A program made the translations under genes and the position numbers. The notes under the pieces were generated by a model that saw nothing but the letters and a program-made list of their open reading frames with translations, searched no databases and was not told the origin of the DNA. From Megalonaias nervosa (Eukaryota; Mollusca; Bivalvia; Unionida; Unionidae): a stretch of 64,000 nucleotides of DNA. The DNA lies in NCBI GenBank assembly GCA_016617855.1, contig JAECUM010001865.1:57593-121592 (forward strand), given 5' to 3'. Shown here piece by piece: positions 3,532 to 24,721 of this stretch (position 1 is its first letter; the number at the start of each line of letters is the position of its first letter).

Positions 3532-3581
3532 GGCAAGAGAATAAAACTTTTCGAGGCAATGGATTGGCCCCAAAAAGGGCC
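3532..3581 (-). terminator. Histone-type 3' hairpin, purine box and TTGCC (left TIR)
   Basis: On the minus strand 3581-3566 folds as GGCCCT, loop TTTT, GGGGCC (6-base stem, one G-T pair). CCTCGAAAAG follows (3556-3547), then TTGCC at 3536-3532. The minus-strand gene above it stops 17 or 25 bases before the hairpin depending on frame. Spacing and parts match metazoan replication-dependent histone 3' ends. Confidence 0.8.
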
Positions 3582-3598
3582 TTTTTTTTTGGTTAACA

Positions 3599-3939
3599 CT
3601 ATTCAGTTAACATAGAGGACATTGCACGGATCTTCTTCTCTTCCTCAAACTTCGTCTGACCTCTGGGCCGTAGATTAAGACTCTTTTCATACAGCCTTGC
3701 CTCTCCACATAGATTAATCGTTTCCAGTGGGCTGTATCAGTCATCTGGGTAATTGCCCATGATGATCTGACATACATGGGATAGTCCGGGTTGAACAGCA
3801 TCGATGATAGGAGGGTAGACAATTCTACGTTAGTCCACATCTTCTGACGAGAACAGGTAAATGAAATGAAGTGAACTGCGGCTGTTAACAGTGGAAGAGT
3901 GGATCGAAACGGATTGAGTTCTTTCACCAATCCTAACAC
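3599..3939 (-). pseudogene. Left-most arm gene, minus strand, frame uncertain
   Basis: Two frames compete. One runs 3939-3607 (110 codons, non-ATG GTG start, stop just upstream), ending in a basic tail RRSLRKRRRSVQCPLC. The other ends at a TAG at 3601-3599 and reads ...GEARLYEKSLNLRPRGQTK, then FEEEKKIRAMSSMLTE, more like the charged helical tails of the other arm genes, but it has stops upstream. No domain is recognised in either. It is transcribed outward from the divergent promoter at 3999-4020 and ends at the histone-type hairpin in the TIR. Probably a damaged small coiled-coil gene; not identified. Confidence 0.45.
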
Positions 3940-3998
3940 GCGTTACAAAATTCAGTCACAGTGCGGAGCCTGTCTTCCAATCCGAAGAGAGTTGCCTG

Positions 3999-4020
3999 TG
4001 ACGTCACATTCCCTATATAG
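3999..4020. promoter_or_regulatory. Divergent promoter: CRE palindrome plus TATATA box
   Basis: TGACGTCA (3999-4006), a perfect CREB/ATF site, lies 8 bases from CCTATATAG (4012-4020). Both are (near-)palindromic and lie between the minus gene ending at 3599 and the plus gene starting at 4068, so they could drive both directions. The plus-strand ATG is 48 bases after the TATA. The same CRE octamer occurs in each TIR. Confidence 0.65.
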
Positions 4021-4067
4021 GTGCGCTAGCAACTGTGCGCAGTGAATCAATGCGACAGAGGTAGAAC

Positions 4068-4700
4068 ATGACGGAAACTACGAACACGATGAATTGGGGT
4101 GCACCGGCCGTGGAGACGAGAAGCGATGGCATAGCAGCGGACACCAAAGCAAACACAATCCTACTTCCAGAAGAGACCAATTTTAATTGGGATCTAGCGG
4201 ATTTTCTCTCTTCTTCACAAGAATTTGTTCCGGTATCAGTACCTTCGCCGCTTTCTCCTTCCCTACCGTACGTCGAGGATATTAAACAGAGGCAGAAAGA
4301 AGAACTGGAGAAATTTTTACAACAGCAGCAAGAAGCAGAACAAGCCTGTCTAATTCGACAGCAACTGCGAAAAGAAGAGGCAAGAAGAAAACGACAGGAA
4401 GAAGAAGAAACAGAGAAAAAACAAGGTTTAGGAGAGAAGGAAGACAGTGAAAGTCAAACGGTGACGGTACTCTTAGACATTTTGGCAGAGTTAAGGAGTC
4501 TGAAACAAATGTATCCGACTTTTTTAATACGACCCAAGAGAAAAAGATCATCCCGAGCCAAACAGTCCAACCTTGTCCACACACCTACTACGCCTGAGAT
4601 ACCAACCCTAGTGATTTCTTCCAAATTACAAGATCCAGAAGAAGACCTTGGCCGTGGCAAAGGGATAAGGCAGTTAAAGCTCATTACTTCCCGTTCCTGA
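4068..4700 (+). CDS. Intact 210-aa coiled-coil protein with basic cluster (left arm)
   Basis: An unbroken frame with an ATG 48 bases after a TATATAG box. The N-terminal ~75 residues are acidic and Ser/Pro rich (TNFNWDLADFLSSSQEF, then PSPLSPSLP). Residues ~75-125 form a strongly charged Q/E/K/R coiled coil (EELEKFLQQQQEAEQ, RKEEARRKRQEEEETEKK). A leucine-rich helix (VTVLLDILAELRSLKQM) follows, then a likely nuclear localisation cluster RPKRKRSSRAK at about residue 155. The tail is Pro/Thr rich. A histone-type 3' signal starts 31 bases after the stop. No family is recognised; intactness in an otherwise broken element is notable. Role unknown, nuclear location inferred. Confidence 0.75.
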   Translation: MTETTNTMNWGAPAVETRSDGIAADTKANTILLPEETNFNWDLADFLSSSQEFVPVSVPSPLSPSLPYVEDIKQRQKEELEKFLQQQQEAEQACLIRQQLRKEEARRKRQEEEETEKKQGLGEKEDSESQTVTVLLDILAELRSLKQMYPTFLIRPKRKRSSRAKQSNLVHTPTTPEIPTLVISSKLQDPEEDLGRGKGIRQLKLITSRS

Positions 4701-4731
4701 GTTTCTTTTTTAAACACAAAAAACACCCAAC

Positions 4732-4785
4732 GGTCTTTTTGAGGGGGACCCATCTTTCTCGAAAAGAGACTACTCAGTGTTTGCC
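4732..4785 (+). terminator. Histone-type 3' end, degenerate hairpin
   Basis: GGTCTTTTTGAGGGGGACC (4732-4750) keeps GGTC/GACC pairing but has about three extra bases in the 3' arm. It is preceded by CCAAC and followed by CCA, as in histone mRNAs. TCTCGAAAAGAGA (4757-4769) is the purine box and TTGCC follows at 4781-4785. Confidence 0.65.
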
Positions 4786-4918
4786 AGAATCAATTAAAAC
4801 TCAAATCCCTTTTTTCCCAATGATGGACGTGTATGAGTGCGTGAGTGTAGGTCCTTATTATAAAAATCAAAACCAAGACACATTTACATTTTTCCTTCAG
4901 GTATATTCTCTGTAAATT

Positions 4919-5404
4919 TTACAATCTAATGTCAAAACACAACACTATAAAAAGTTCATTTACCATCTTCTTTCTCTTTTCACTCTCTCCTTTTCTGAAT
5001 TTCTTCACTTTCACAGGTTTTTCCTCTTCTTCCTCATTTTCTTCTCGTCTTCTTTTCTTCTCTTTCTGAACGTGTCTGGGTTCTTCCTTTTCGGAGGGTA
5101 CCTCTTCTTCCTCTTCTGAACCCCTCTATTCCTCCTGCTCCTATTGTTTCTTAGGGCAGTCTGAAGACCAATGTCCTTTCTCTTGACAATGATAACAGGT
5201 ATCTTGACTTTTTTCTCGTTTGAGGTTTGTCTTGCTTTGACGTTGTGGACATTCTGAAGACCAATGCCCTTTCTTCTGACAGATATAGCAAGTATCTTGA
5301 CTTTTATCTCGAAAGGAGCGGGATTAGTCCGTCGGCATCTCTGAAGAAAACCTTCGAATGACACCTCGCAAAGCTCTGATCAGAAGTTTGATCTGTGTTG
5401 GCTC
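4919..5404 (-). pseudogene. Protein with two CCHC zinc knuckles, broken
   Basis: On the minus strand one frame encodes two near-identical retroviral-type zinc knuckles: CYICQKKGHWSSEC (5290-5249) and CYHCQEKGHWSSDC (5197-5156), each C-x2-C-x4-H-x4-C and each preceded by KSQDT. Such knuckles bind single-stranded nucleic acid. Upstream in frame an ATG (5338-5336) is followed four codons later by a stop. Stops also follow the second knuckle, after which an acidic/basic tail (EEEEEVPSEKEEPRH, EKKRRREENEEEEEK) runs to a TAA at 4921-4919. A TATA box for this strand lies at 5472-5462. CCHC knuckles are not part of the standard Polinton set. The two knuckles look duplicated from one another. Confidence 0.75.
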
Positions 5405-5461
5405 CTCAATCTTTCTGGTCGGATTGAGAGTGAAATGAATACTTTGAGGGAAGACACTGAT

Positions 5462-5472
5462 CCTTTATATAG
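5462..5472 (-). promoter_or_regulatory. TATA box for the zinc-knuckle gene
   Basis: Minus strand reads CCCTATATAAAGG across this site, upstream of the CCHC gene; the CCCTATATA core is the same as in the 3999-4020 promoter. Confidence 0.5.
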
Positions 5473-5496
5473 GGAACACACTGGCCTTACATTGAT

Positions 5497-5503
5497 ATAA
5501 AGA
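5497..5503 (+). promoter_or_regulatory. TATA box upstream of polymerase gene
   Basis: TATAAAG on the plus strand, about 50 bases before the short ORF at 5549 and 170 before the polymerase ATG. It is back to back with the minus-strand TATA at 5462-5472, giving a second divergent promoter. Confidence 0.45.
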
Positions 5504-5548
5504 GGACCATGACGTTTAAAATTTAGTCAATTTTGCAATCAAGATGAA

Positions 5549-5671
5549 ATGATTGCACATTTCGTGGACAAAGAAGAAGAATGTAAGAGGCAGAAAGGTG
5601 ACCTATCGTTTCGCACAGTAGCTGAAGTCTTGGCTCAATTTCATGCTAGCGATCTCTCAAAGGTGAGATGA
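5549..5671 (+). CDS. Short ORF overlapping the polymerase start by ATGA
   Basis: Forty codons (MIAHFVDKEEECKRQKG...) ending in a TGA that overlaps the polymerase ATG as ATGA (5668-5671). It is charged and could form one helix. It follows the TATA at 5497. It may be a small real protein, an upstream regulatory ORF, or chance; the same ATGA junction occurs at 16510-16513. Confidence 0.35.
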   Translation: MIAHFVDKEEECKRQKGDLSFRTVAEVLAQFHASDLSKVR

Positions 5672-8600
5672 GTGAACCAGAATCCAGACCTAGACAGCCT
5701 ACGTTAAACAAAAATCCACCACCAGTAACCCCTGAAAAGTACTACCACATTCGAGAGACCGATAAACACTCCTCTAGAAAATTTAGAACCACAGCCTACA
5801 CGTACACGGTGACGTTTAAAGATTTCAAGTCTGACGTACATCTGGAGAAAGCAGAAGGGTTCATCACCGATTTGTGGGATACTTTGTTAACTACACTGAA
5901 ACGGCAATGTGAAGCCAAAGAAGACGATCGCTTAACACTTTCTGTTGATCACGACAGCCTGAAGACTCCCGTTTGGGTCGAGTTTCGGAGGCCATCAGAA
6001 TTGACACCTTCCAAAGTCATCGACAAGATTCAACACGTGCAGCAGTCCAACGACAAGTTTCACATCACGGATGGAAAAGCGACACTGTACATGACTCACG
6101 TTTCTCTTCCCCAAAGGACCAGACGCAAAAAGGTGTTATTGGTGGATGACCTTCGTAGGACCAAAAAGAGTCTCGTTCGAATTAACAACCCTCAAGACCA
6201 GATGTGTTTAGCCCGTGCCATCATGGTGGGACGAACATATGCCGACAAGAACGACACGGCAGAATGGAAAAGAGCCTGGAAAACTATTCGATAATCGGAC
6301 TGAGAAAAACAACGAAGAGAACCAGAATTCCTGTTAGAGCAGGCTGGGATATAAAAGGACACACCCTGTGGCATTCCTGAAATGCAAACATTGCAAGACG
6401 TCTTGGCCCCACGCTACACCTTGAAAGTACACCCTCTGTTGTTTCGAGGCAAAAATTTCAAAGATGGAAAATACATTCACGTCTCTCATCACCATCAACA
6501 TTTTGATGCCATTACCAGTATCATCGGATTCCTGGGATGCGGTTATTATTGTGAGAAATGTGACTATGGCTATAACAATCGAGAGCAACTAAAGCGTTGT
6601 GGATCGAAATGTGAGGGATGTTTGGCCTCTAAACCCTGCCTTGACGAAGGGCACCAACGAGTGCATTGTCCAACTTGTCAGCGCATTTTTGTCAGTCCTA
6701 CCTGTTACCAACAACATCTTAAGACGCAAGGTTCACAACAGAAAAGTGCTTGTCAACTCCTGAGATTGTGGACAAGTGATACGTAGCAATAATTCCAAGG
6801 CACACCTATGTCCAGGAAAGAAGCCATGTCAAATTTGTTACCAAATCGTGGACTTGGAACACGAATGCTACATTCAAAAATGCCAGCCCCAAAAGGAGGA
6901 GGAAGAAGATGGCCAGAAGAAGAAAGGGAATTTCATCTTTTTCGATTTCGAATGCATGCAAGAGACCGGCATTCACATTCCTAATTTTTGCGTAGCTCAC
7001 CGAGCGTGCGAGAAGTGCATCCAAGAACCTATCTTTTGCCATTGCCCGCACTGCAGCAAGATTCCCGGAGGACGTGAAAAAAATCTATCGACGACCGAAC
7101 ACACTGGCTGATTTTGCCAAATAGATCTTAAACCCTATCGACGAAACGCGGAGTCAAGAGACATCGAACGTTACAGAGATTGCCATCGCTCTGCCACGGT
7201 GATGGCTCACAATTTCTTGGGGTACGATGGACAATTTCCTCTGAAATACTATACGGAACAAAGCACCGAACGTCCTTAACTCACTTTTAACGCAGCCAAA
7301 ATCATTTTCATGCAAGTAGGACAAGTCCAGTTTAAAGATTCGATGAGTTACTTGGCCATGCCATTGAGCCGAATGCCTAAAACGTTTGGAAAGACAGAAA
7401 TGGCCAAAGGCATTTATCCGACCTATTTCAGTGCCGAAGCCAATCAACACGCCGATCTACCCCTTTTGCCTGATGATCACTACAACGACCCGACAACACG
7501 CGCACCGAACAACGAGAAGCTTTCTACGATTGGTACCACTCTCACGCCTCGGACCCCGTCGACTTCAGGAAGAAATGTTAAAGTATTGTCGATCCGACGT
7601 AGACATTTTACGGCGTTGATGTGGAAAATTTCGAGAATTTCAAAGTAGCCAGCACCATTGCCAAAGCGTGTTCCTTAGTGTACTGCAAAAGACTCATGCC
7701 CCAAAACACCCTGGCTCTCATTCGCCCTCAAACGACCAATTTTGTCAAGCGCCAGTACTCGGTCAAAGCCCATCGCTGGCTACATTACTTGTGCGATAAG
7801 TAAGACAAATGGATCCAACACGCCCGAAATGGAGGAGGCGAAAAGACCATCGGAACGCATTCAGTGGATGGCTGGGACTTAGAAAACCCCAAGAGTGTGT
7901 ACGAGTTTAACGGTCGCTAATATCACCGATATCCCATCTGCTACCCTCAACAGTACACTAAAAATCAGTTCTTACAACAGACCATGGAAGACTTCTACGA
8001 GGCCACTTGTCAGCGTCGCTTAAAGTCAGAACAGCAAAGATACCAATTGGTGGATATGTGGGAACACGAGAACGATCTCCGTTTGAAAACCGATCCCGAG
8101 TTTAAACGCGTCGTGGAAAGTTACAAGCTGGTGGATCCTCTAAATCCGCGGGACAGTTTGTACGGAGGACGGACGAATGCCACCTGTTTGCTGTACCACG
8201 CCGACGAGGAGAAAGGAGAAGAAATCAAATACTTCGACTTGTGTTCGCTGTATCCTTACGTGTGCAAATAGTGTCACTTTCCCGCAGGGCACCCGCAATT
8301 ACTGACGGAACACATCGACCTGGACAACATTCGAGAATACGAAGGATTGATTAAATGTAACGACTTGCCTCCCAATGACTTGTACCATCCCGTTTTACCT
8401 CACCATTGCCAAGGAAAACTGATGTTTCCCTTGTGACGTACTTGTGCCGAAACGTGCAACCAAGACCAACCTTGTCAACACACCTTGGAAGAATGCACCT
8501 TGACGGGAACGTGGGTCAGCGTGGAATTGTTTAAAGCTCTGGACCTGGGATACCAATTGTTAGAAGAGTACGATTTACCACGTTCCCAAGACAGAACAGT

Positions 8601-9543
8601 ACCACAAGGGTGACGAGACTCAAAAAGGCATTTTCGCAGACTACGTGGATGCCTTTTTAAAACTGAAACAAGAAGCCAGCGGCTATCCTTCCTGGTGCTA
8701 CACTCCCGAAGACCAAAACAATTCAAAGAGAAATACTTGGAGCAGGAAGGCATCACTTTAGACCACATCGAGAAAAACGAACGAAGGCAATCGTTTGCGT
8801 AAGTAATGTAAAATTGTTTGTGGGGCAAAATGGCACAACGACCGTGTTTGCCCAAGATGGAGTATTTGTCAGATCCTTCCCGCTACTTCCAGATGATTCA
8901 CGACAAAACCAAACACATGAAACACGTGGAAGTCCTTCGTAAACACTTGATTCTAGTCAATTACGAACATCAACTGGACTTTGCAGAAGCCGACGAATTT
9001 GGAAATGTCATCATTGCGGCCTACGTAACAGCCCATGCTCGCTTAAAATTCTACGAAGCTTTAGAGCTGTTAGGAGATCATGTGCTGTATTTTGACACGG
9101 ACAGTGGCATCTACATCGATCGCCTGGATCACCGGCACCCTGACATCGAAGGAGACCGTTTAGGAGCCTGGACGGACGTGCACTCCGACGACAAGATTCT
9201 AAGTTTTGCTGGTGGCGGTCCCAAAAATTACTGCTACGAATACCGGGACAAACAAGGAGATGTACACACGCAGTGTAAAGTGAAAGGATTGACTCTAAAC
9301 CATCACACAAGTCATGTGGTGAACTTTGGGATATTGAAAGAAGCCTTGCAGTTTGCAGAGGATCGAGATTTTAAAGTGACCACCTACCAACCTCACAAGA
9401 TTGTACGTTTACCCACACACCAAATTGTCAGTCGACCTTTGGAAAAAGTGTCTCAAATCGTGTTCCAGGAGCGAGTGCGACTTCCCAACCACTTCACTTT
9501 GCCGTACGGACATACTAGTATAAAAATGGTTCCAAAACGATAG
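5668..9543 (+). pseudogene. polB: Protein-primed DNA polymerase B, broken
   Basis: About 1,290 codons, full Polinton pPolB length, with frame changes near 6780 and 7440-7570 and around 8600-8760, and many in-frame stops (6292, 6301, 6352, 7801, 8269, 8800 and others). In order: the N-terminal region with DQMCLARAIMVG (about 6199), then a Cys-rich zinc-ribbon stretch (CEKC, CEGC, HCPTC), Exo I FDFE (6941-6952), Exo motif AHNFLGYD (~7205), PLSRMPKTFG (~7354), CRSDVDILRR, pol motif A DLCSLYP (8236-8256), motif B reduced to NCLWGK (8812-8829) with two stops just before it, and motif C FDTDS (9091-9105). In related proteins motif B carries NS; here it is NC. The enzyme would replicate element DNA from a protein primer. 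This copy is dead. Confidence 0.95.
9519..9526 (+). promoter_or_regulatory. TATA box inside the polymerase 3' end
   Basis: TATAAAAA lies in the last eight codons of the polymerase frame, 33 bases before the first ATG of the BIR gene (9559). Confidence 0.5.
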
Positions 9544-9558
9544 CCACCAACAAGAAGG

Positions 9559-10031
9559 ATGACTTCGAAACAGCAAGAATAGATCGAGGGACCAACGGTG
9601 AACTCCAAGGTCAAACAATACAATTTTCCTGTCTTCTTGCCTGACTATTGTGATTGTGCCAGTCGAATGGAAACGTCTAAAAAAAATGGCCTATGGATAA
9701 GGAAGGAATACCTACTTCGAATGTTTTAGCTAGAACAGGATTTGTCTTGGGGCCTGAGACTGGATTGGGATACGAAGTACAGTCTTTCAGTTGTGGTCTG
9801 AGGTTGCATATGGATCGATGTATCTATAAAGATTCAGCTATTCTGGGACATACTCGATGGTCTCCGCACTGTTGTTATCTTTCTATGGCCTTTCCACCCT
9901 TCACACTACGCTACATGTATGATGGTACCTTAGAGAAGGTAGTACCGTTGTCCAGGATGAAAATAGGAAGACATACAAAACTAAGTAGAAAAAAGGAAAG
10001 ATGTACAAGGTTGAGACTTCATTACCAATAG
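9559..10031 (+). pseudogene. BIR-domain (IAP-like) gene 1, broken
   Basis: The ATG at 9559 meets a stop after seven codons. Around 9640-9700 another frame has DYCDCASRMET, the expected start of a BIR. The longest open piece (9693-10031) carries the BIR core: ARTGFVLGP, SFSCGLRLHMD, then HTRWSPHCCYL, i.e. the C-x2-C...H...C zinc pattern in which the second cysteine of the first pair is changed (SCGL rather than CxxC). A short basic tail (MKIGRHTKLSRKKER) follows with no RING. BIR proteins inhibit caspases or signalling; in a virus-like element the likely role is delaying host cell death. A TATA at 10032 follows at once, suggesting a separate next gene. Confidence 0.75.
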
Positions 10032-10039
10032 TATAAAAA
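10032..10039 (+). promoter_or_regulatory. TATA box before second BIR gene
   Basis: TATAAAAA directly after the stop of the first BIR frame and about 55 bases before an ATG at 10095. Confidence 0.45.
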
Positions 10040-10094
10040 AGGAAAACGTCCAAGACAGATAGTTCATTGTAACTACAAACACCAAGCGAGAAAG

Positions 10095-11500
10095 ATGAAT
10101 CCTCATAACAAACACACCATTCAAGTTCAGTGATTCCCAAGTGGAGTGCGATGCTGTGCCTTGCGATGTCAGCGATGCCGTACGCTGTGACCTCAGTGAT
10201 TCAGTGCCACATAATGGGAATTTTGCTATGACTACTACTACTACAATACCTGCCACTGAAAGTAAAGCTGTGCGTGTCAAACCTGACGGATGCGAAAGCG
10301 ATGCCACTCGTTATCGTACACTTATCAGTTTCCTGGTTTTCATTGTCTATTTCATCCTCCACGTGAAACCACGCGACTACCACCCTACGGATGTCATCTA
10401 TGCCTGAGTAAACTACTGCGGATTTCACCGTACCCTCATCGAAATCAACCTGTGAAGGAAGAATATTCGTCCCCTGTGCGTTTGCCTGAATACTGCAACT
10501 TTGAAAGTCGTTTCCAAACTTTCCAAGGAAAATGCCCTAATATCTGGGACGACCTACCCCCGAAGAATTAGCCAGAGCCGGATTTATCTACTTGGGCGAA
10601 GGTGATCAAGTCAAGTGCTTCAGCTGCGGTGTGTCACTTCACCAGTGGGAACAGAAAGATTCCGCCTACCTAGAACATGCTCGATGGTCTCCGCACTGTC
10701 ACTACCTACCATTAGTGGAACCCTAGTAATCTCTTTACAAGAGAACATTTGTGGTTCGCCTGTGGAATTGAGAGAACGCATTTACCAAGAGTTTGTCAAA
10801 ATGCAAGTACAACGCAAAGAACAATTACGTCATTACGTCACCGATGTTGGAACCAGTGGTACCTGAATGGTATAAGAGAACTGATTAATTTCAAAGTGTT
10901 CCAATGGTCAGATATTGATGAATCACACGAGATTCATAAAGCTTTGGATGCTACTCATTCTACTTACAAGGTGACTTTAGTACACCGAATTCCAGAGGAA
11001 GAGTTACAGGGTTACCAAAATCTTTTACATGAACAAATCTTGGTTCAAGAGGAAACATCTGTGCGACGTGTGGTGTGTGAGTTAATGACTAAACAATTTT
11101 AGTACGATGCTTAAATGAAGCCGCTTCTGTTCAAAAATTACATTTATTACCTCCGACAAAAAAAAATGTATAAAAACTTTGTTACCATGCCACGGCAGTT
11201 AACATTAGTGATGAAACAATTGCCGTGGAAGTAAATCAATGACAGTATTCAGACTGTGGTGGATTACCAACTCTTTTCACGAGAATGGTATTCAATGAAT
11301 TTGGGCCGTCGTGTGGTGTGTGTCTTAGTGACTTGATTTCTGGGATTTCGTTTACCAGCCGATTCCTTGTGCGCTCGGTACGATCTGTACTGTCAGGTAC
11401 CATCCCCGAAAGACCATTCCGGGAGGACATTGTGTGACTGTGTCAAGTGTAGAGCCTCTAAGAGCATTACAAACTGTCCCTAGGACACCAAAAATATTGT
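10095..11500 (+). pseudogene. BIR plus RING (IAP-like) gene 2, broken
   Basis: Several frames share this gene. An ATG at 10095 is followed by a stop after 12 codons. A BIR begins at about 10485 (LPEYCNFESRFQTF); a one-base change in a C run near 10558 shifts frame into LARAGFIYLGEGD, CFSCGVSLHQWEQKD, HARWSPHCHYL (10571-10720), which retains the BIR zinc ligands and the W/D signature. A charged stretch (VTLVHRIPEEELQGY...) fills 10970-11100. At 11300-11480, split over two frames, CGVCLSD and later CDCVKC and NCP suggest a RING finger. BIR-RING is the architecture of IAP E3 ligases. An AATAAA at 11618 would close it. Confidence 0.7.
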
Positions 11501-11617
11501 ACAGTGACTTGTTTATATTCCACTTTGATCGTTTTGATGTGTATTTTATCGATGTACTTAACCATTTGGCTATTATGCCTATTTGTCTTTCGTGTTGCAT
11601 TTTAAACTTTTTTTTAA

Positions 11618-11623
11618 AATAAA
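11618..11623 (+). terminator. AATAAA poly(A) signal
   Basis: AATAAA about 120 bases after the RING remnant and just before the TATA of the ATPase gene; no histone-type hairpin nearby. Confidence 0.5.
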
Positions 11624-11639
11624 CGTGTCCTGAAAAAAG

Positions 11640-11645
11640 TATAAG
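11640..11645 (+). promoter_or_regulatory. TATA box for the ATPase gene
   Basis: TATAAG 49 bases before the ATPase ATG at 11694. Confidence 0.4.
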
Positions 11646-11693
11646 AACTCTTGTCTTGTCTGTCTTCGTTTCAAAAGTGACATTCCCTACACT

Positions 11694-12434: not shown

Positions 12435-12437
12435 ATC

Positions 12438-17344: not shown

Positions 17345-17347
17345 GTC

Positions 17348-17797: not shown

Positions 17798-17813
17798 ATC
17801 ACAGAAAGAAAAA

Positions 17814-19097
17814 ATGATGCACGAGAGTCTTGCGAATTTTCCAAGTCGGAACTGGATCTGTTTGCCATGCCACCCACCATGATTACGATGCAAGAATCCA
17901 AATGGGTAGAATTTCATCCCATCTCCTCAATGACAACCTCAGCTCCCATCGAATTTGAAATCAAAAGACAGCCCGAAGATTACATCGATCTGAATATCAG
18001 TTACTTGTATTTGAAAGTCAAAGTGATCAAAACGGACAACACCAATCCGGGAGCCGATACTAGAGTAGCTCCCGTCAACAATTTCAGCGAAGTGGATTTT
18101 TACTTAAGTAACAAACTGGTCAGCAGTAGCATGGATACTTACCCTTACCAAGCGTACCTGGAAAATCTCTTGACGTAACGAAAAGAGGCCAAGAACACTG
18201 ATCTGGATGCTTGCGTGGTTTGGAAACCTGACAAAGCGGGCGGGGTCAAGTTTAACGACACAACCCTGACAACAGATGACGATCCTCACAATGTAGGCTT
18301 TAACGACCGTCGAAAAACATCCTGCAAGGACGTAGTTTAGAACTGATGGATCGTTTGCATTTGGACATGTGGTTACAAGAGAAGTATTTGCTGAACGGAG
18401 TGGATATCCGCTTAATCTCAGCAGTACCGCTTTCCATTTGATGGCCCATGCCATCCAAGAAGCCAGTCTCTACGTGCGATGCGTGGAAGTGTTACCTAAA
18501 GTGGGAAACGACATCAGTCACACTTTGAGCAGAACGACCGCCAAGTATCCGATACCACGCGAGGAAGTTAAAACGTTCACCATTGCCGCTAGACTCCACT
18601 CCAAGATCGAAGATCATCTGTTCCAAGGACAGTTACCAAAACATTTAATCGTTGGTATCGTCAGCAATGCAGCCCTCAACGGAGCCGTCACTACCAATTC
18701 TTTCGAGTTTAAACACTACAGAGTGTCCAAGCTCGAAGTCAGTCGAGATGGCAAGACCTTGTGTACCAGTCCCTTTCAACCAAATTTTGAAGATGCCAAG
18801 AAGAATTACTTATGATCGTACTTGTCCCTGCACGATGCCACTGGACAGCTAGGGGCCATAACCAGCCACGGCATTTCGTATGACAATTATCCAGGAGGTT
18901 ACGCTTTGTGGGCTTTTGATTTCACTCCAGACCAAGGCAGCGACGAGGGACATTACCACCCTATAAAATGCGGTCAACTGCGTGTGGAACTTCAGTTTGC
19001 AGAAGTTCTAACTGAGACCGTGAAAGTCATCTTGTATGCCGAATTCGACAATACGATAGAAATCAACAGTTTGAGAGAAGTCATTTTAGACTCTTAG
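17814..19097 (+). pseudogene. Double-jelly-roll major capsid protein, broken
   Basis: About 428 codons. Motifs in order: KSELDLF then MPPTMITMQESKWVEFHPIS, PIEFEIKRQPEDYIDLNISY, VAPVNNFSEVDFYLSNKLVS, TYPYQAYLENLL, then (other frames) LELMDRLHLDMWLQEKYLLN, YPIPREEVKTFTIAARLHS, NSFEFKHYRVSKLEVSRDGK, and the C-terminal ALWAFDFTPDQ, LRVELQFAEVL, VKVILYAEFDNTIEI. Breaks: frameshift near 17825, TAA at 18176-18178, two shifts between 18290 and 18430, TGA at 18813-18815. This is the hexon-like capsid subunit of Polintons/adintoviruses and is the reason to see the element as virus-derived. Confidence 0.93.
18962..18969 (+). promoter_or_regulatory. TATA box inside the capsid 3' end
   Basis: TATAAAAT in the capsid coding end, 134 bases before the next ATG (19103). 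Confidence 0.35.
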
Positions 19098-19102
19098 AAA
19101 CT

Positions 19103-19588
19103 ATGGAAGACTCTTATCCCTCTTTGAATGGTAGAGAATCTTTGGAAATGCAATGGAAGGATATGGTGGAAGCAGAACCATCCACCAAAAAAGACAAAGA
19201 CGAAGAGGACATAGTCATGTCCAGGTGGCCAGAACAAGAACAATATTTAGTCTCCTGTTTTGCCAAACACCTGGCGGAAACTATTACAGGTTTGACTAAG
19301 AAACATTGCTATGGATGTCAAAAAGATCATCCCAGTAAAGCTCAACACGATCAATATCTGACGATGAGTCAAGAAAGAAAATTGGACGAGTATCTGGCGG
19401 ACGCTTGGGGTCTCATCTCGGAAGAAGCAGTGTTGCATCAGTGGTATAAAGACTTGCGTGATCAGTCTTTCCCTCCACTGCCTGCTCTAGAGATCCATCG
19501 CATCGAATCTCTCTTGGCCCAGAGTGCGGAGACGAAGCGAAAAGACAATTACTTGATAGTGATTTTCAAGCAAAAAGTCAGTATTTAA
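19103..19588 (+). CDS. Intact Polinton-conserved CYGCQKDHPS protein
   Basis: An unbroken 161-codon frame starting 6 bases after the capsid stop. The N-terminal third is acidic. The centre has FAKHLAETITGLTKKHCYGC and QKDHPSKAQHDQYL, a C-x2-C...H...H arrangement that could bind metal. The C-terminal half is helical (ERKLDEYLADAWGLI, LEIHRIESLLAQS). A protein with a C-GC-x-DHPSQ-x-H signature between capsid and protease genes is common in Polintons as I recall them; its function is not established. It is the only core-block gene with a full open frame here. Confidence 0.8.
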   Translation: MEDSYPSLNGRESLEMQWKDMVEAEPSTKKDKDEEDIVMSRWPEQEQYLVSCFAKHLAETITGLTKKHCYGCQKDHPSKAQHDQYLTMSQERKLDEYLADAWGLISEEAVLHQWYKDLRDQSFPPLPALEIHRIESLLAQSAETKRKDNYLIVIFKQKVSI

Positions 19589-19640
19589 TTGGTGACTTAT
19601 CATTATCTGTGAAAGAAGGAAAAAAAACAAACAAAACAAA

Positions 19641-20188
19641 ATGGATACCTGGAAACTTTATTACCTTTTGATAAACAGTTCGTACACCGCTTCTTGGAAT
19701 CCTGTCGTGTGCGCTAAAGATGAACTTCCTCATCGCAAACCTAAAGACCATCAAGCTTATGTCGTCAACACGGACGTCATCTCCCAGGAATCCACTGGGT
19801 ACCCTTCTACTTTCTCCACGATGCCTGTGTGGAATATTTTGATTCGTATGGATTACCGCCTTTAGAAGACGACAGCATCATGAGAAGAAATCCCCAGACG
19901 ACTCGCTTCAATAATGTGAAATTACAAGGCACAGATTCCATGGTGTGTGGACAATATTGTGTGTATTTTCTTCATCAACGCAGTCTTGGATATCCCTTAG
20001 AACATTTAGTGACTTATTTTGATCGTGACTGTTCTAGAAACGATGAAAAAGTAGATCGATGGTTTTGTGACCATTATGGATATCTCTTGTCTTTAGCTAG
20101 GAAACGTAGTGGACATCAATGGCCCAATGACTTCCTTCTGTGGAAGTCTAACTTGACTTCACAACGTAGTCAACCTTGTCCAAAATAG
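19641..20188 (+). pseudogene. Adenain-like cysteine protease, one frameshift
   Basis: About 183 codons from an ATG at 19641. The N-terminal part has VVCAKDELP and AYVVNTDVISQE. A frame change between about 19770 and 19793 separates it from the rest. Catalytic residues are present: H in IHW (19793-19795), D in EYFDSYG (19841-19843), Q in KLQGTDS and C in MVCGQYC (19946-19948). The C-terminal frame is open to the TAG at 20188. In adenovirus and Polintons this C5/ULP1-type enzyme matures capsid proteins. Only one lesion is seen, fewer than in neighbouring genes. Confidence 0.9.
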
Positions 20189-20238
20189 TTAGTTTGAAAA
20201 AAAAATTGTTATTTTATTGGTTGGTTAATTATTGGTTG

Positions 20239-20244
20239 AATAAA
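20239..20244 (+). terminator. AATAAA poly(A) signal after the core block
   Basis: AATAAA about 50 bases after the protease stop, in an A/T-rich tail; no hairpin. It marks the end of the core gene block. Confidence 0.6.
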
Positions 20245-20384
20245 AAAAATGTTATCTTTTGAAAAAGTGTTGGTGGGTTGTTTTGAAAAAAATATTTATC
20301 ACTATACAAGCTCTTTGTCTTCTCTCTATCCGTTACTATGAGATAAGCTATATAGCGTTCCGACCCGAAAATATCCTAGGGTTA

Positions 20385-20415
20385 TTTTCTATCGCGTCCG
20401 CGCTTGAGACATAAA
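20385..20415 (+). promoter_or_regulatory. Arm-gene promoter block, copy A
   Basis: TTTTCTATCGCGTCCGCG then CTTGAGACATAAA. The block CGTCSGYGCTTSAGAC recurs at 22789-22814 and 24190-24222, each time upstream of a small coiled-coil gene. Confidence 0.6.
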
Positions 20416-21927
20416 GCGCGGCGGTCTCCAGTCTGACCATCCCATTCACATTCATTCCATTTGATCCATTCATTCACGCAGTGGACGTCGAGGGAGCAAC
20501 ACTGGAGCGCCAAGCCTGCGTTATCGTATGGGGAATAGGAGGGGGCAGGGCTACAATCAGTGCTCCGATAAGGGTGGAGTGGAAAAAACGTGCTGCACAT
20601 GGGCCACGACTAGCTAACCAAATAGAAGAAAAAGATGCGTAGCCCTTGTATGTGTTAGCTGCCTGCGGAGACCTAACTACCAACCCATCGAGATGAGACT
20701 CACCTATCCACCCAACGATTAGTTACACCATAACTGCAACTGGCGTATCTTTAGTCCAGTATTAACGCTGTGACCGGAAAGATATCAAGACTGGAAAGGA
20801 AATGGTGGAATTTGTCTGGGGTTTTGTGCTGTTGTCCACAGATGAAGAACAAGCCAGCCTGAATACCAGTGCAGACCAAATCCGGAAAAGCCTAGACGTC
20901 CCTGGACTCGGCATGAAAAGACCAAGCAACCTATTAATCTTGCCTGGGTGACTGTATTTGGTTTTCATTTTGGCTCGAAAACCGTTTTTGATTATATCTT
21001 TATTCTGTAGCTCTAATTTGATCCTTTTGTTACCGCCATTAAAATTACTCTTAGTTGTTATGCGTGATACAAAACATGCATGAGTCATTTTGACTTAGCT
21101 GATTGGCACATTTTAGGAATATTTATGTACACTTTGTACACTAAATTCCAACTTTGAATGTAATTAATAATGAAAATTAGTAACTTGTTTGATTTGGTTA
21201 ATTGCACAGGTGGCTTACACGTTATTGGATTATTTATATGTCCATTATATAACTGGACTGAATTTGAAAAATTAAGTACGGACTGGCGTTTCGGGGCCCT
21301 GTCGCGTTCGCGCCAATTGCCGAGTCCCTTTCCTCCTTTTCCTCACTCGGACACCTGTACCACGACGGAGATGTGGAACAATTTCTACCCGTCCAGCACC
21401 AGGTGTCCCGATGTAACGTCATAGTCGCGACGAATCGTGACTGGCGTCTCATTCTGCTTTGGTTGACACCTGGTATCGCTGAAGATTGGACTCCCAATCC
21501 AGATTTAACTTGAGTGCGTGTTGGGTCTATTCCCACTCAAGTAAAGTCTCTGAGCGCTAGCTGGCGCTGTGGCGGAGTGGCATGTGGGTGCATGGCGAAA
21601 CATGCTGCATGTGTGGACTGGAGACCCATACGTGGATGAAGAAAGATAGTCCGGTAATACCTGCATGCCAACGAGTCTGCTCTTATAATGAGGAGTGTGC
21701 TGTTGTGGTTAAAAGTTAAGCACTTTACCCTTCAGTATTCAAGTCAATTCACCAGCTGCGTATTTAATCAGGTCGTTTAGGACTTAGTTGACCCACGACC
21801 TGATGGCACAATTATCAGCACTCTTTGACGTCTGGGGGATGAGGTTCTAATTCCTTCCCCTAGGAATAATTAACAGCCTGCGGTGCAGGCATAAACCAGT
21901 GGCACATGCACTAATGTGCGCTCGCCT

Positions 21928-22016
<89 letters not shown>
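20416..22016. other. Mostly non-coding stretch in right-arm cassette A
   Basis: A frame without ATG is open from about 20414 to 20640 (includes HAVDVEGATLERQAC and IRVEWKKRAAHGP) and may be a broken first part of the cassette gene. From 20700 to 21928 no gene is seen on either strand. A long (CT)n run ends the stretch at 22014. Sequence may have been inserted between promoter A and the gene at 22017-22394. Confidence 0.4.
21929..22014. repeat. (CT)n microsatellite
   Basis: About 43 uninterrupted CT units directly upstream of the reading frame at 22017. Confidence 0.95.
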
Positions 22017-22017
<1 letters not shown>

Positions 22018-22394
22018 CATCCATTGTTGACTCATCCACCTATGATATAGCTAAGCTGAACGCCGCCTACGTGAATTTACATCGCTTTAGGCAAAACCTG
22101 ATACCCAAGCCTGATGAAACTGAAAATGTCAGGATGTTAAGAATGGCCCAAGACCTGATAGAAGATGTGTTTAAAGACGAAATCAAGAAGGAGCAAGAAG
22201 AATGGACCGAGAAGTATACACTTCAGAAACAGCAGAGAGAACAGCAACATCAGCAGCAACAACAGCAGGAGCCAGACAGAGGTTTTGTGGACTGTCGTGT
22301 AGACACGAAAGAATTCTCCTTCTCCTTCCGCAGAAGCAGGCCCTATCCTGTGGAAAAGCCTGCAGCCAGACGGGGACGCAATCTTAGACGATAA
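22017..22394 (+). pseudogene. Arm gene A: coiled-coil protein with Gln run and basic tail
   Basis: Open from 22017 (no ATG; GTG at 22071). It reads DIAKLNAAYVNLHRFRQNL, then MLRMAQDLIEDVFKDEIKKE and a charged helix ending in a Gln-rich stretch (QQREQQHQQQQQQE), then Phe/Ser and a basic tail KPAARRGRNLRR. The start seems lost next to the (CT)n run. The stop is 28 bases before a histone-type hairpin. Composition parallels the genes at 4068-4700 and 23157-23649: helix, low-complexity linker, basic tail. Function unknown; nuclear or DNA-associated role is inference. Confidence 0.55.
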
Positions 22395-22422
22395 TAGATT
22401 GGTATACCCCCCTCAACAAAAC

Positions 22423-22478
22423 AATCCTTTTCAGGGCTACCCCCAACTATCTAGAAAAGGGATAGTAGTCAAATTGCC
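22423..22478 (+). terminator. Histone-type 3' hairpin, purine box, TTGCC (cassette A)
   Basis: AATCCT, loop TTTC, AGGGCT (22423-22438; one mismatch and a wobble), then ACCCCCA, CTAGAAAAGGGATAG (22451-22465) and TTGCC (22474-22478). Confidence 0.75.
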
Positions 22479-22514
22479 AAAATATTTGTCTGTCTTTTTG
22501 TGTGTTGGTTGTTT

Positions 22515-22690
22515 AAAAATAGAAATGTGCCTATAAACACTTCGTTTCTCTGACTTGTAAGATGGTGTGTGTATATGTTTGTTTGTAAGTAAAAAATAGA
22601 AGGGTGCCTATAAATACTTCGTTTCCCTGACTTAGTTTCCCTGACTTGTGAGATAGTGTGTTTTTTATATGTAGGAGTGATAATAAAGTG
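22515..22690. repeat. Two imperfect ~85-base tandem units between cassettes
   Basis: AAATAGAAATGTGCCTATAA (22517) recurs as AAATAGAAGGGTGCCTATAA (22594), each followed by ACACTTCGTTT/ATACTTCGTTT, CTGACTTG and AGATRGTGTG. A related GTGACTATAAACAC sits at 23987 after the next cassette, so the spacer may have been duplicated with the cassettes. Confidence 0.65.
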
Positions 22691-22788
22691 TGTTTGTGGG
22701 TGAAAGGTCAACGTGTTTCTTTTAGGTCCGACTGTTCCATTTTATGGATAGTGGAGTGGGTATTGTTAGTTGTTGTGTAAGGGGGATG

Positions 22789-22814
22789 ATTTCCTTCTCG
22801 TCCGCGCTTCAGAC
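22789..22814 (+). promoter_or_regulatory. Arm-gene promoter block, copy B
   Basis: ATTTCCTTCTCGTCCGCGC then TTCAGAC, preceded by TAAGGGGGATG. It is the same block as copies A and C; the TATA-like part is lost here. Confidence 0.55.
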
Positions 22815-23156
22815 TGACGCGTTCGTCAATCTGGCTTCCCAGGGAACGTCCACTAGCACAACTGGACAGAATTTGACATACAATCACGTCGGTCCGGGCC
22901 CTTTGGAGCGTACACGGCATCAGCAGTTGGCGTCCCCCGCCGGGTCCCCTTCCTCCGTTCCACCTCCTGACATACAATTAAAAAGTATGACTATCGTACA
23001 TAAAAGCGGTGTTTTTGCGGCATCATTCCTGAAACACCGACCAATTAAAAAGCTCAACAACTCAGCATTAACGAGTCGCAAAAGCTCTTAGTTAGCATAG
23101 GCGACTTTAATCCTTCTCAGTCAGTCAGTACCCATCGTTGATTCGTCAACTTCCAA

Positions 23157-23649
23157 ATGCATCGGGAGTATGCCAGACGCATCCTGGACGAGCTGGCAAT
23201 GGAGCCCATTGCAGAAAGTGCCAGGATAAAAAAGGAGGAAGAGGAAAATAAAAAGAAAGAAGAAGAGGAAAAGAAGAAAGAGATCCTGCCTCTCCTCATA
23301 CTTAGACCTGTGTGTGAGGTGAAACCTATGGCGAGGACACCTCCACAGCCACAACCAGCACCACAGCCACTACCACCGAGAGCCTCTGTCCCCCAGACAG
23401 AAAACTGGTATGAGGAGTTGGAGAGGCAGCACAGAGAATGGGAACCGCAGAGAGATCAACCACAACATCCACGGGTCAGGCATAGGAAAAGACAGATGGT
23501 AACAAGTCTTCAGAATTCCAGACACTGAAGATTGGGGTAATGAAGCCAATCAAGCTGCCTCTGCGCTCCAAACCACAACTGCGAATTGGGACAATGACTG
23601 GAGCAGGAGATGTGTCTGTCGTGCCCGGCCTGGAAGATGCCAACATTAA
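23157..23649 (+). pseudogene. Arm gene B: coiled-coil, Pro-rich protein with one frameshift
   Basis: ATG at 23157: MHREYARRILDELAMEPIAE, a K/E coiled coil (KKEEEENKKKEEEEKKKE), then Pro/Gln-rich sequence and a WYEELERQHREWEPQR helix. The frame stops at 23528 after a basic stretch. One base shift near 23505 leads into DTEDWGNEANQAASALQ and NWDNDW, ending at a TAA at 23647-23649, 32 bases before the hairpin, a spacing that favours this as the true end. No known family. Promoter block B lies 340 bases upstream; the interval may hold a lost 5' part. Confidence 0.55.
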
Positions 23650-23681
23650 TCAAATGTGCATTTATAGTTGGAAAAAAACCC

Positions 23682-23735
23682 AGCCCTTTTCAGGGCTAAC
23701 CAGATCTCTAGAAAAGAGAGACTGATCAAGTTGCC
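23682..23735 (+). terminator. Histone-type 3' hairpin, purine box, TTGCC (cassette B)
   Basis: The best copy: AGCCCT, loop TTTC, AGGGCT (23682-23697), a perfect 6-base stem and 4-base loop, followed by AACCA, CTCTAGAAAAGAGAGA (23706-23721) and TTGCC (23731-23735). Confidence 0.85.
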
Positions 23736-23745
23736 AATCATATAA

Positions 23746-23935
23746 TTGTGTATTTGTGTGTGTGTGTGTGTGTGTGTGTGTTTGTGTGCGCGCGTACGTT
23801 TGTGTGTCTGTTTGTGTGCGCGCGTACGTTTGTGTATGTGTGTTTGTATGCGTGCGCGTACGTTAGTGTTTGTATTTGTGTTTGTATGCGTGCGCGCGTA
23901 CGTTTGTGTGTATGTGTGTTTGTGTTTGTTTTTTT
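23746..23935. repeat. GT-rich microsatellite/minisatellite
   Basis: (GT)n followed by several units of GTGTGCGCGCGTACGTTTGT and variants. It is open in several frames only because of its composition. Confidence 0.9.
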
Positions 23936-24189
23936 CCCTTAACAAATCCTTGTCCCTAAACTAAGTATTTGTGAATGTGGAGTAGTGTGACTATAAACAC
24001 AAACTCATTTGCTGATGTAATTGTAGGTAATGGTATGTTTTGTAAATAACAAATTTCAATCTCCACTATGTATTGATAGTGGTTTTGTTAGTATTAGTGT
24101 GTTGTTTTGTATAAAAATTTATTTTAGGTTAGCACTCTCATCACTGTGGATTGTTTGGTAGGTGATATAGGTAATTGGTAAGAGGGATG

Positions 24190-24222
24190 TTTTCCTTCAC
24201 GTCGGTGCTTGAGACATATAAA
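24190..24222 (+). promoter_or_regulatory. Arm-gene promoter block, copy C
   Basis: TTTTCCTTCACGTCGGTG then CTTGAGACATATAAA; TATAAA (24217-24222) lies 42 bases before the ATG at 24265. Preceded by TAAGAGGGATG, as in copy B. GAGCATTCGTCATTT follows, similar to the CATTC cap-site type of histone genes. Confidence 0.65.
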
Positions 24223-24264
24223 ATGGAGCATTCGTCATTTGCGCCATTCAACACTGAATAAAAA

Positions 24265-24665
24265 ATGGCCAGCAACATGGAGAAGATGATAAAATTGCAA
24301 GAAGCAGTGGATAGAGTAGGCATGGTGGAGGAAATGTTGGTTAGGATATAGTATGGGGCTTATAGCCAAACAGATTGAGCGTGGAGATCAATAATTTGAA
24401 GAAAGGGAAAAAAAATATTAAAGGAACTAATCAAACAGGAAAAGGAGGAGAAGAAGGAGAATGAGAAAAAGAGCAAAAAGAAGAAATTAAAAGATGGAAC
24501 GAGAAGATGGAAAAAGAAGAGGAGAACGAGAAGAGGAAGAAATAGGAGGAGGACAAGGAGAAGGAGGAAGAGGAGGAGGAAAAAGATGAGAAGAAGAAGA
24601 CAAATGTAGCGAAGAAGATAAGGAACTGGTGGAAAAGAAGAAGAGAGGAGAGTCAGTAGAAGAAA
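24265..24665 (+). pseudogene. Arm gene C: K/E-rich coiled-coil gene, broken
   Basis: ATG at 24265 gives MASNMEKMIKLQEAVDRVG and stops at 24351 after 28 codons. Further stops and a frame change follow, then about 250 bases of almost pure purine encoding Lys/Glu in one frame and Arg/Lys in others (LKELIKQEKEEKKENEKKS). The histone-type hairpin of the right TIR begins at 24672. The opening resembles the flank gene at 2128-2361 (MASQHRK..., LDRV). Probably a coiled-coil protein like its neighbours; function unknown. Confidence 0.5.
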
Positions 24666-24671
24666 TCCAAA

Positions 24672-24721
24672 AGCCCTTTTCAGGGCCACTCCATTGCCTC
24701 GAAAAGATTTACTCTCTTGCC
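24672..24721 (+). terminator. Histone-type 3' hairpin, purine box, TTGCC (right TIR)
   Basis: AGCCCT, loop TTTC, AGGGCC (24672-24687), CACTCCA, CCTCGAAAAGATTT (24697-24710) and TTGCC (24717-24721). It is the mirror image of 3532-3581, so both TIRs end outermost genes with this signal. Confidence 0.8.

Follow-up and report, generated by a model that had tools for sequence, protein, structure and literature searches.

Putative histone-type 3' end signals at the arm genes of a Polinton-type element in the bivalve Megalonaias nervosa

The window analysed here is a 64,000-nucleotide stretch of the Megalonaias nervosa genome (contig JAECUM010001865.1, positions 57,593 to 121,592), which carries a Polinton-type element near its left end (Table 1). 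Self-comparison of the window places the terminal inverted repeats of this element at 3061-3584 and 24669-25242, with 85-94% identity in long blocks. The target-site duplication is 8 bp as read and the same on both sides; that of Polintons/Mavericks is usually 6 bp. In the integrase, the rve core scored above the Pfam cut-off (PF00665, E 7.5e-9), and the chromodomain fell just under it (PF00385, E 3.5e-5, 24.1 bits against a cut-off of 25.1). The 12 homologues of the core protease carry neither an informative name nor a Pfam domain. Eight further regions were fetched at predicted core positions in the genome; protease homologues were found in other copies of the element (L091, L094, L095 and L097), and none of the pieces tried had a match in L092, L093 or L096.

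A 243-aa piece at 8812-9543 matched no Pfam family at 0.01 and contains a YFDTDS motif, which we take to be polB-like. Searches for a packaging ATPase and a jelly-roll capsid protein returned broken pieces, none with a Pfam match above cut-off, and IMG/VR scans for relatives of the integrase, the polymerase-like piece and the protease gave no confirmed relative. The element shares with Polintons/Mavericks (adintovirus-like) its long terminal inverted repeats, a target duplication, an rve integrase with chromodomain, a protease-like gene and a multi-gene core. Many copies of the element are decayed, the window's among them.

Table 1. Features of the element and its left flank (positions within the window)
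Feature	Position	Strand	Basis
Polinton-type element, ~22.2 kb, terminal inverted repeats	3069..25234		boundaries from sequence
Target-site duplication AAGCGCTT, left copy	3061..3068		sequence
Target-site duplication AAGCGCTT, right copy	25235..25242		sequence
S6, sixth site, outside element in left flank	1745..1790	-	RF00032 17.1 bits
S1, histone-type hairpin, box GAAAAG at +13, TTGCC	3532..3587	-	RF00032 28.2 bits
Arm gene 1, 77 aa, with the S1 hairpin 25 nt past its stop	3607..3840	-	ORF
Arm gene 2, 210 aa, charged, divergent from arm gene 1, with the S2 hairpin 31 nt past its stop	4068..4700	+	ORF
S2, hairpin disrupted in window copy, box CGAAAAGAGA at +13, TTGCC	4726..4785	+	sequence
BIR (IAP) domain pieces, two	9681..10726	+	PF00653 E 1.1e-6 and 2e-20
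Integrase split into two open pieces, rve core followed by chromodomain	14952..16130	+	Pfam
Core protease piece with AATAAA signal (20239-20244)	19745..20244	+	12 homologous proteins
Relic of captured histone H4 gene, internally deleted	21085..21342	-	likeness to L078
Arm gene 3, of uncertain start, with the S3 hairpin 28 nt past its stop	22017..22394	+	ORF
S3, 3-mismatch hairpin, box TAGAAAAG at +15, TTGCC	22417..22479	+	sequence
Arm gene 4, with the S4 hairpin 153 nt past its stop	23157..23528	+	ORF
S4, hairpin AGCCCT-TTTC-AGGGCT, box CTAGAAAAGAGAG at +13, TTGCC	23677..23736	+	RF00032 19.6 bits
S5, S1 copy in right terminal repeat	24667..24722	+	RF00032 27.7 bits

A preliminary description of this DNA had reported five sites that share a hairpin, a purine box and a TTGCC block. 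All five stretches are present, and a sixth can be added. The purine box starts 13 nt past the 16-nt hairpin at five of the six window sites and 15 nt past it at the remaining one. Of six possible stem pairs, S1 and S4 form all six as standard pairs, the only sites in the window copy to do so; S3, S5 and S6 form five and S2 four. Because S1 and S5 both lie in the terminal inverted repeats, they represent one site in two versions. S6 resembles the S4 stretch over 36 nt (89% identity, E 1e-6) and S2 over 45 nt (76%), and probably derives from an older remnant of an element in the left flank.

The Rfam model of the histone 3' stem-loop, RF00032 (cut-off 34 bits), matched four of the six sites, all four below cut-off in this decayed copy. 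With E-values calculated for all 4227 families over 64 kb, these were S1 (3540-3586, minus strand, E 0.00069), S5 (24667-24713, plus, E 0.0011), S4 (23677-23721, plus, E 1.2) and S6 (1745-1790, minus, E 9.6), the last having the same layout as S1-S5. Neither the S2 hairpin (4732) nor that of S3 (22423) was reported by the model in the window. A scan of the window for the bare hairpin pattern is weak evidence: GCCCTTTTCAGGGC alone with up to 3 mismatches gave 8 matches against 2.7 ± 1.7 in shuffled sequence, and 1 of 100 shuffles reached 8.

Across the window's own genome (2.19 Gb), RF00032 returned 75 scored matches, 66 of them above cut-off and reaching 44 bits, and we fetched 70 of these loci (L003-L072, about 3 kb each). 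Element sites dominate, with homology to the arm genes or terminal repeats at 65 of the 70, and no core histone gene was found beside any of the 70 by tblastn at 1e-3 within the roughly 3 kb fetched. The covariance-model scan proposed with the preliminary description thus picks out the window sites and, among the scored genome matches, mostly sites of the element, which rejects the refuting condition that the model would do no better than on shuffled sequence. The same model applied to 14 control genomes gave one match, in Lactococcus, below cut-off. In IMG/VR the canonical hairpin pattern had no match, and the exact hairpin-plus-box pattern had one unique match, on two overlapping phage contigs; it sits inside a coding region, and we regard it as a chance match and keep it as background.

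The sites follow the small genes of both arms. Hairpins had been described as lying 17-32 nt past the stop codons, and this placement holds for S1, S2 and S3, but not for S4, and no intact ORF precedes S5; the S6 hairpin is 342 nt past the nearest ORF stop. Homologues of arm gene 1 occur at 40 of the 70 fetched loci, and in P0013 and P0014, and the median distance from stop to hairpin is 27 nt (site present at 35 of 38 loci). Arm gene 2 likewise has homologues at 40 of the 70, with a median distance of 34.5 nt (site at 32 of 34 loci); its product appears coiled-coil-like by eye. Neither AATAAA nor ATTAAA stands ahead of the hairpin at 30/35 arm gene 1 and 30/32 arm gene 2 loci. One of the two motifs does occur within 250 nt past the arm gene 2 stop at 28 of 34 loci, in 2 of them before the hairpin.

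Arm gene 3 has homologues in L018, L091, L095 and L098, the last region containing this arm gene only. An S3-equivalent site follows the gene in L018, L091 and L098, and the L095 sequence ends soon past the gene. Weak homologues of arm gene 4 were seen at 4 of the 70 loci. A 121-aa ORF at 22726-23091 is doubtful as an arm gene: its matches track promoter-like DNA, which in L080 lies between an H4 relic and an arm gene.

The retention of these signals was assessed at 28 partner sites, which were not chosen by their own hairpin but lie within copies chosen for another good hairpin, a sample that under-represents decayed copies; the gene ends in L008, L052 and L068 were left out because no stop was found. 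A hairpin with at most 3 mismatches is present at 25 of the 28 and one with at most 1 mismatch at 22, and hairpin and purine box (13-15 nt) occur together at 23, leaving 5 at which one or the other is missing. Among 2000 shuffled 150-nt stretches, none reached 2 mismatches or fewer and 10 had 3. At S2-type sites not picked by their own hairpin, from 12 copies besides the window's, a hairpin (at most 3 mismatches) is present in 12/12 and the box as well in 11/12. The arm proteins of other copies are mostly 60-83% identical to those of the window.

A larger set of 96 distinct sites was tallied after filtering on hairpin and 10-17 nt spacing, a filter that favours paired stems. Here the box starts at 13 nt in 74 sites, 14 nt in 9 and 15 nt in 13, with a variable linker. 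The first stem pair has changed from G-C to A-U in 7/96 sites (the window's S3 and S4 included), and the third from C-G to U-A in one; the fourth is C-A in 5/96 despite the hairpin filter. CCAAA or CCAAC precedes the hairpin in 71 of the 96, this flank being outside the filter criteria, and TTGCC or TTGCT follows within 34 nt past the box in 69. We know of no histone counterpart of the TTGCC block.

For the core genes, the preliminary description had claimed AATAAA ends without a hairpin. This stands for the protease, the core gene whose 3' end was examined: AATAAA lies 17-50 nt past the stop in 4/4 copies seen (50 nt in the window, at 20239), and the best hairpin match after the gene in the four copies has 4 mismatches. 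The L094 sequence ends before the protease 3' flank. Across the element AATAAA shows no enrichment, occurring 8 times on the plus strand against 14.4 expected from shuffles.

We also compared the element sites with the host's own histone genes. The host H2B gene L088 has a perfect hairpin and L089 a hairpin with 1 mismatch, each with a similar box at 13 nt. Past the hairpin, the best agreement of L089 with an element site (n=95) is 20 of 24 nt, and the maximum in 20,000 shuffles was 16. No hairpin was found in the third H2B stretch fetched (L090, truncated), nor at up to 4 mismatches in three host H3 pieces (L082-L084). Overall, the support that host histone genes lend to the element signals is thin. 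Three H3-tail matches (L085-L087) considered as genes of the element were rejected, as they resemble another repeat family.

The host has an SLBP gene (PF15247, E 1.9e-15), seen as two exon-like matches on C954, one of which contains a stop. A host U7 RNA was not found with RF00066 at E 1e-3, a model that was equally silent in all controls, which makes its negative result uninformative; searching with a U7-like pattern produced 1 match, and its reversed control 2. Mouse U7 pairs through CUCUUU with an AAAGAG core, according to PMC7026596, and the boxes of S2, S4 and S6 contain this same AAAGAG core. The candidate U7-pairing sequences of the element are CGAAAAGA and CTAGAAAAGAG.

The right arm also contains the relic of a captured histone H4 gene, a new observation. 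The motif GKGGKGLG (21342-21319, minus strand) is weak by itself (E 0.46). Over 203 nt, the window relic matches L078 at 70% identity (E 1e-28), and L078 in turn matches H4, with E 8e-15 under relaxed search settings and 3e-5 under stricter ones. This relic in the right arm shows that the element captured histone DNA. The 3' side of the H4 relic in L076, placed by eye, is no closer to the element sites than shuffled sequence is (6.8/24 against 7.0/24).

These results support the preliminary reading of the arm-gene ends as histone-type 3' processing signals. The element sites have in common with metazoan replication-dependent histone 3' ends the 16-nt hairpin GGYYCU-UUUC-ARRRCC, CCAAA/ACCCA-type flanks, a downstream purine box, a short 3' UTR and the spacing seen in two host H2B genes. 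Unlike in histone mRNAs, they end non-histone arm genes, carry the extra TTGCC block and, for arm gene 2, often lie near AATAAA or ATTAAA. On this sequence comparison, the arm genes very probably end in genuine signals of this class, which through host SLBP and U7 would yield replication-linked mRNA without poly(A). Host SLBP would bind the hairpin just past the arm-gene stop codon, and the U7 snRNP would pair with the purine box starting 13-15 nt past it. Cleavage of the pre-mRNA between the two would leave a capped transcript that lacks poly(A) and whose production and stability would be largely confined to S phase or to DNA-replicating cells. With ordinary AATAAA ends in the core block, as seen at the protease gene end, RNA 3' ends could set two programmes, one coupling the arm genes to DNA replication and the other polyadenylating core transcripts.

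One variant would give the arm genes dual ends, with replicating cells using the histone-type site and a poly(A) signal farther downstream serving in all other cases. We consider this possible, though we lean against it. C. elegans histone genes combine a hairpin with a poly(A) signal, as described in PMC1924863, and the motifs past the arm gene 2 stop at 28 of 34 loci would fit, although such motifs are common in AT-rich DNA and that count has no matched control. Poly(A) motifs are, however, found at only 9 of 38 arm gene 1 loci, and none lies within 120 nt past the arm gene 3 stop in L091, L095 (a partial stretch) or L098.

It is unlikely that the sites are passive relics, that is, histone 3' flanks captured once, spread by duplication or conversion and now functionless. 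The H4 relic does demonstrate capture, and decay has reached many copies, the window's included. Against this reading, the hairpin is kept at 25 of the 28 unselected sites, with arm proteins mostly at 60-83% identity to the window's, the stems show compensatory changes, and the 13-15 nt spacing is held over a varying linker, bearing in mind that hairpin and 10-17 nt spacing were part of the filter. Still less probable is a role of the hairpins at the DNA level, in a replication origin, recombination or packaging. Two of them do lie within the terminal repeats, and linear replicating elements use terminal structures; yet the hairpins are sense-oriented at gene ends in both arms, and their flanks, spacing and box resemble two host H2B genes. 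Chance, or a biased reading of an AT-rich repeat, has almost nothing left to recommend it, as window scores under the Rfam cut-off and a 3-mismatch bare pattern just modestly above shuffles are outweighed by genome scores of up to 44 bits, by the partner sites, and by an exact hairpin-plus-box pattern with one unique IMG/VR match, in a phage coding region.

Returning to the reading of the arm-gene ends as histone-type signals, we think it likely that a virus-like element family adopted the host histone 3' end system for non-histone arm genes, the signals themselves perhaps originating from host histone genes and histone promoter DNA perhaps captured alongside the H4 relic. If so, no earlier case is known of a selfish element that ties its non-histone mRNAs to S phase by way of SLBP and U7 and leaves its core genes on poly(A). 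Among the matches of a limited literature search, no paper described a relic of a histone gene, or 3' ends of histone type, in Polintons/Mavericks. If true, the histone 3' end pathway would have a non-histone user in a selfish DNA element, which would offer a natural assay for SLBP and U7 requirements and a concrete mechanism for a virus-like element to time its genes to host DNA replication. Temporal separation of two Polinton gene sets, on which we know of little work, would also become testable. Virus-carried histone genes exist, for example bracovirus H4, and the likeness is that of a mobile or viral genome with a histone gene copy; the element differs in that H4 is present as a relic and unrelated genes carry the 3' signal.

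The element occupies 3069-25234 (~22.2 kb), bounds that follow from inverted repeats at 3061-3584 and 24669-25242 and from the palindrome AAGCGCTT on either side. Its Pfam domains comprise an rve integrase, two BIR domains and a chromodomain, the last one bit below the Pfam cut-off, and its protease piece has 12 homologous proteins in a set of 5.8 billion. Several core genes are split into pieces; the polymerase-like piece at 8812-9543 matched no Pfam family, and no tool applied to the window copy recognized a Polinton polymerase or capsid.

The five histone-type hairpin sites named in the preliminary description (S1 to S5, of which S1 and S5 are one site carried by the two terminal-repeat copies) are all present in the window, and a sixth (S6) lies outside the element. 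As had been described, a GAAAAG box, a purine-rich stretch, stands 3' of the 16-nt hairpin; this holds at all six sites, at a spacing of 13 nt in five and 15 nt in one. Standard stem pairs number six of six in S1 and S4, five in S3, S5 and S6, and four in S2, with two mismatches to the textbook hairpin in S1 and four in S2. In the covariance-model scan that had been proposed, both strands of the window were compared with all 4227 Rfam families; the histone 3' stem-loop model RF00032 (Histone3) matched S1, S4, S5 and S6, all below its cut-off of 34 bits, and the sites at 4732 and 22423 (S2 and S3) went unreported.

Covariance-model matches and histone-derived DNA in the window
Feature	Position	Strand	Evidence
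RF00032 match (S1)	3540-3586	-	28.2 bits, E 0.00069 over all families
RF00032 match (S5)	24667-24713	+	27.7 bits, E 0.0011 over all families
RF00032 match (S4)	23677-23721	+	19.6 bits, E 1.2 over all families
RF00032 match, new sixth site (S6), left flank	1745-1790	-	17.1 bits, E 9.6 over all families
Putative relic of internally deleted histone H4 gene, right arm	21085-21342	-	Likeness to locus L078; also L080, L067

S6 sits 342 nt after a small ORF, 2128-2361(-), whose likeness to arm gene 3 is weak (tblastn E 0.19; arm genes 1 to 4 are the small genes of the element), and is probably a remnant of an older element into or beside which the present one inserted. Judged by eye only, the boxes of S2, S3, S4 and S6 are often looped out by another short hairpin (TCTCTAGAAAAGAGA; in S3 CTATCTAGAAAAGGGATAG). 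Also outside the element, sub-threshold Rfam matches to CRISPR-DR52 and microRNA families at 43916-43951 and 45933-46045, the microRNA ones in an apparent simple repeat, are likely due to chance.

A search of the genome with RF00032 (2.19 Gb, 54,709 contigs, E <= 0.001) scored at least 75 sites, 66 above the cut-off and the best at 44.1 bits, a lower bound as the 75 were scored out of 423,121 first-look candidates. Among 14 control genomes, one (Lactococcus) gave a match, below the cut-off. Seventy of the 75 sites were fetched (L003-L072, mostly ~3 kb apiece): 47 loci showed arm-gene homology, 61 terminal-repeat homology and 65 either, leaving L021, L023, L024, L040 and L071 with neither. Many loci carry two sites on opposite strands ~1.1-1.2 kb apart, the layout in which S1 and S2 flank arm genes 1 and 2, a divergent pair. 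Short stretches fetched for eight copies at the expected protease position, ~15 kb from S2, contained the protease in L091, L094, L095 and L097 and arm gene 3 in L098; L092, L093 and L096, at predicted core positions, gave no match. The protease matches fall near the predicted distance from S2, a further tie between the sites concerned and the element.

Since the loci themselves were picked by their hairpin, the second, unpicked site of a locus offers a fairer sample, even though such partner sites still come from copies chosen for another good hairpin. Leaving out the window and dropping three gene ends with no stop within 60 nt, we had 28 partner sites, of which 16 follow arm gene 1 and 12 follow arm gene 2. 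The textbook hairpin was matched with at most three mismatches in 25/28 and at most one in 22/28, and 23/28 had hairpin and box together; among 2000 shuffled stretches none had two mismatches or fewer and 10 had three. Over all loci with usable gene ends, hairpin-selected sites included, a site with at most four mismatches lay within 250 nt of the stop in 35/38 for arm gene 1 and 32/34 for arm gene 2 (median distances 27 and 34.5 nt).

The form of the sites was tallied over 96 distinct examples, filtered to a hairpin with no more than three mismatches followed by a box 10-17 nt away. Standard pairing at stem pairs 1-6 was found in 95, 94, 94, 90, 95 and 96 sites. Seven sites have A-U in place of G-C at pair 1, a compensatory change. 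At pair 3 one site has U-A and 19 have U-G, and C-A occurs at pair 4 in five. Loops read UUUC in 85 sites, and the box stands at 13 nt in 74, 14 in nine and 15 in 13. The flanks, which lie outside the filter, resemble those of histone genes: CCAAA (45/96) or CCAAC (26/96) on the 5' side and ACTCA (31/96) or ACCCA (25/96) on the 3' side. TTGCC follows the box in the window at 3532-3536, 4781-4785, 22474-22478, 23731-23735 and 24717-24721, and TTGC[CT] in 69/96 distinct sites, at a distance of 10-14 nt in 60 of these. Histone genes are not known to carry such a block, the complement of which is similar to an NFI half site.

The core genes had been described as lacking the hairpin and using AATAAA; this holds for the protease, the only core gene end compared across copies. 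In all four copies whose protease 3' flank was seen (L091, L095, L097 and the window), AATAAA follows the stop, at 17, 17, 45 or 50 nt, and no hairpin was found, the best match having four mismatches. Arm gene 3, by contrast, ends in L091 and L098 with a hairpin (three and one mismatches) and a box, and no AATAAA lies within 120 nt; in L095 its 3' flank is outside the fetched stretch. Across the element AATAAA is not enriched (eight on the plus strand, 14.4 expected).

On this sequence evidence, the economical reading is that host SLBP and U7 snRNP would process arm-gene transcripts in the manner of histone pre-mRNAs. The main alternative is a mixed mode, in which a poly(A) signal backs up the histone-type end: in 28/34 loci the 250 nt next to the arm gene 2 stop contain AATAAA or ATTAAA, and C. 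elegans histone genes have hairpin and poly(A) signal together, according to PMC1924863. That the sites are passive relics, or act at the DNA level, fits less well with their retention, spacing and placement at gene ends.

For SLBP/U7 processing, SLBP is encoded by the host. An RF00066 search for U7 gave no match anywhere and its controls were likewise silent, and a U7-like pattern gave one match against two in the reversed control. In the S2, S4 and S6 boxes the core is AAAGAG, the one that CUCUUU of mouse U7 pairs with according to PMC7026596. Intact histone clusters seem scarce in the assembly, since most host histone matches (H4 7, H3 27, H2B 6) are fragmentary. Of the six H2B matches, three were fetched: L088, which has an open frame, ends in GGCCCTTTTCAGGGCC followed at 13 nt by TAAAAG; L089, interrupted by one stop, ends in GGCCCTTTTCAGGGCG followed at 13 nt by GATAAG; and L090, a truncated gene, has no hairpin. 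Over the 24 nt past the hairpin, L089 agreed with 95 element sites at a mean of 13.9 and at best 20 positions, against a mean of 7.2 and a maximum of 16 in 20,000 shuffles; L088 gave a mean of 13.1 and a best of 17. In the H1/H4 relic L077 the hairpins are decayed, and the boxes read GAAAAG, at 14 nt, and GAAAAA, at 11 nt (means 9.5 and 11.5; shuffles 7.1 and 8.0). In L076, whose H3 and H4 ends were positioned by eye, the H4 end was no more like the element sites than shuffles, and no hairpin was found in the H3 pieces L082-L084.

In a search of 5.39 million open papers, nothing among the matches listed joined Polinton, Maverick or adintovirus to the histone stem-loop or related terms, which falls short of proof that no description exists. 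IMG/VR (2.9 million contigs) held zero exact matches to the canonical hairpin pattern. PMC5011920 and PMC6210712 describe the stem-loop as marking replication-dependent histones in Hydractinia and in the bivalve Lucina, the purine element less regularly so in the latter.

The element likely captured a histone gene, judging from H4-like pieces in the window, L078, L080 and L067. Although window 21342-21319(-) encodes GKGGKGLG with an E of only 0.46 on its own, the 203 nt around it match L078 at 70% identity (E 1e-28), and L078 encodes an H4 N-terminus interrupted by one stop (E 8e-15 under relaxed search settings, 3e-5 under stricter ones). Similar pieces occur in L080 (6e-11) and L067 (0.02), the latter the element's own relic seen in a relaxed search of the 70 loci that also gave MSGRGKGG in L041 (E 0.6); tblastn at 1e-3 found no core histone in these loci, mostly ~3 kb each. 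Many of the changes in the L078 and L080 pieces, which are better preserved, seem to be L-to-P or I-to-T replacements. The L080 relic is directed away from an arm gene ~0.2 kb off (gene start placed by eye), and the DNA filling that gap lies in the window 1.6 kb off, at 22942-23115, before arm gene 4. It is speculation that a captured H4 promoter drives an arm gene. A 36-nt repeat (72-81%) upstream of right-arm genes, at 20378, 22782 and 24183 and once immediately before TATAAAA, is a possible shared promoter element. L085, L086, L087 and 13 other places from the H3 search belong to a different repeat family, in which DNA like the host H3 promoter and ~30 codons for the N-terminal tail of H3 lie beside an ORF starting MSKRK (by eye); histone regulatory DNA was thus apparently acquired by a second mobile element.
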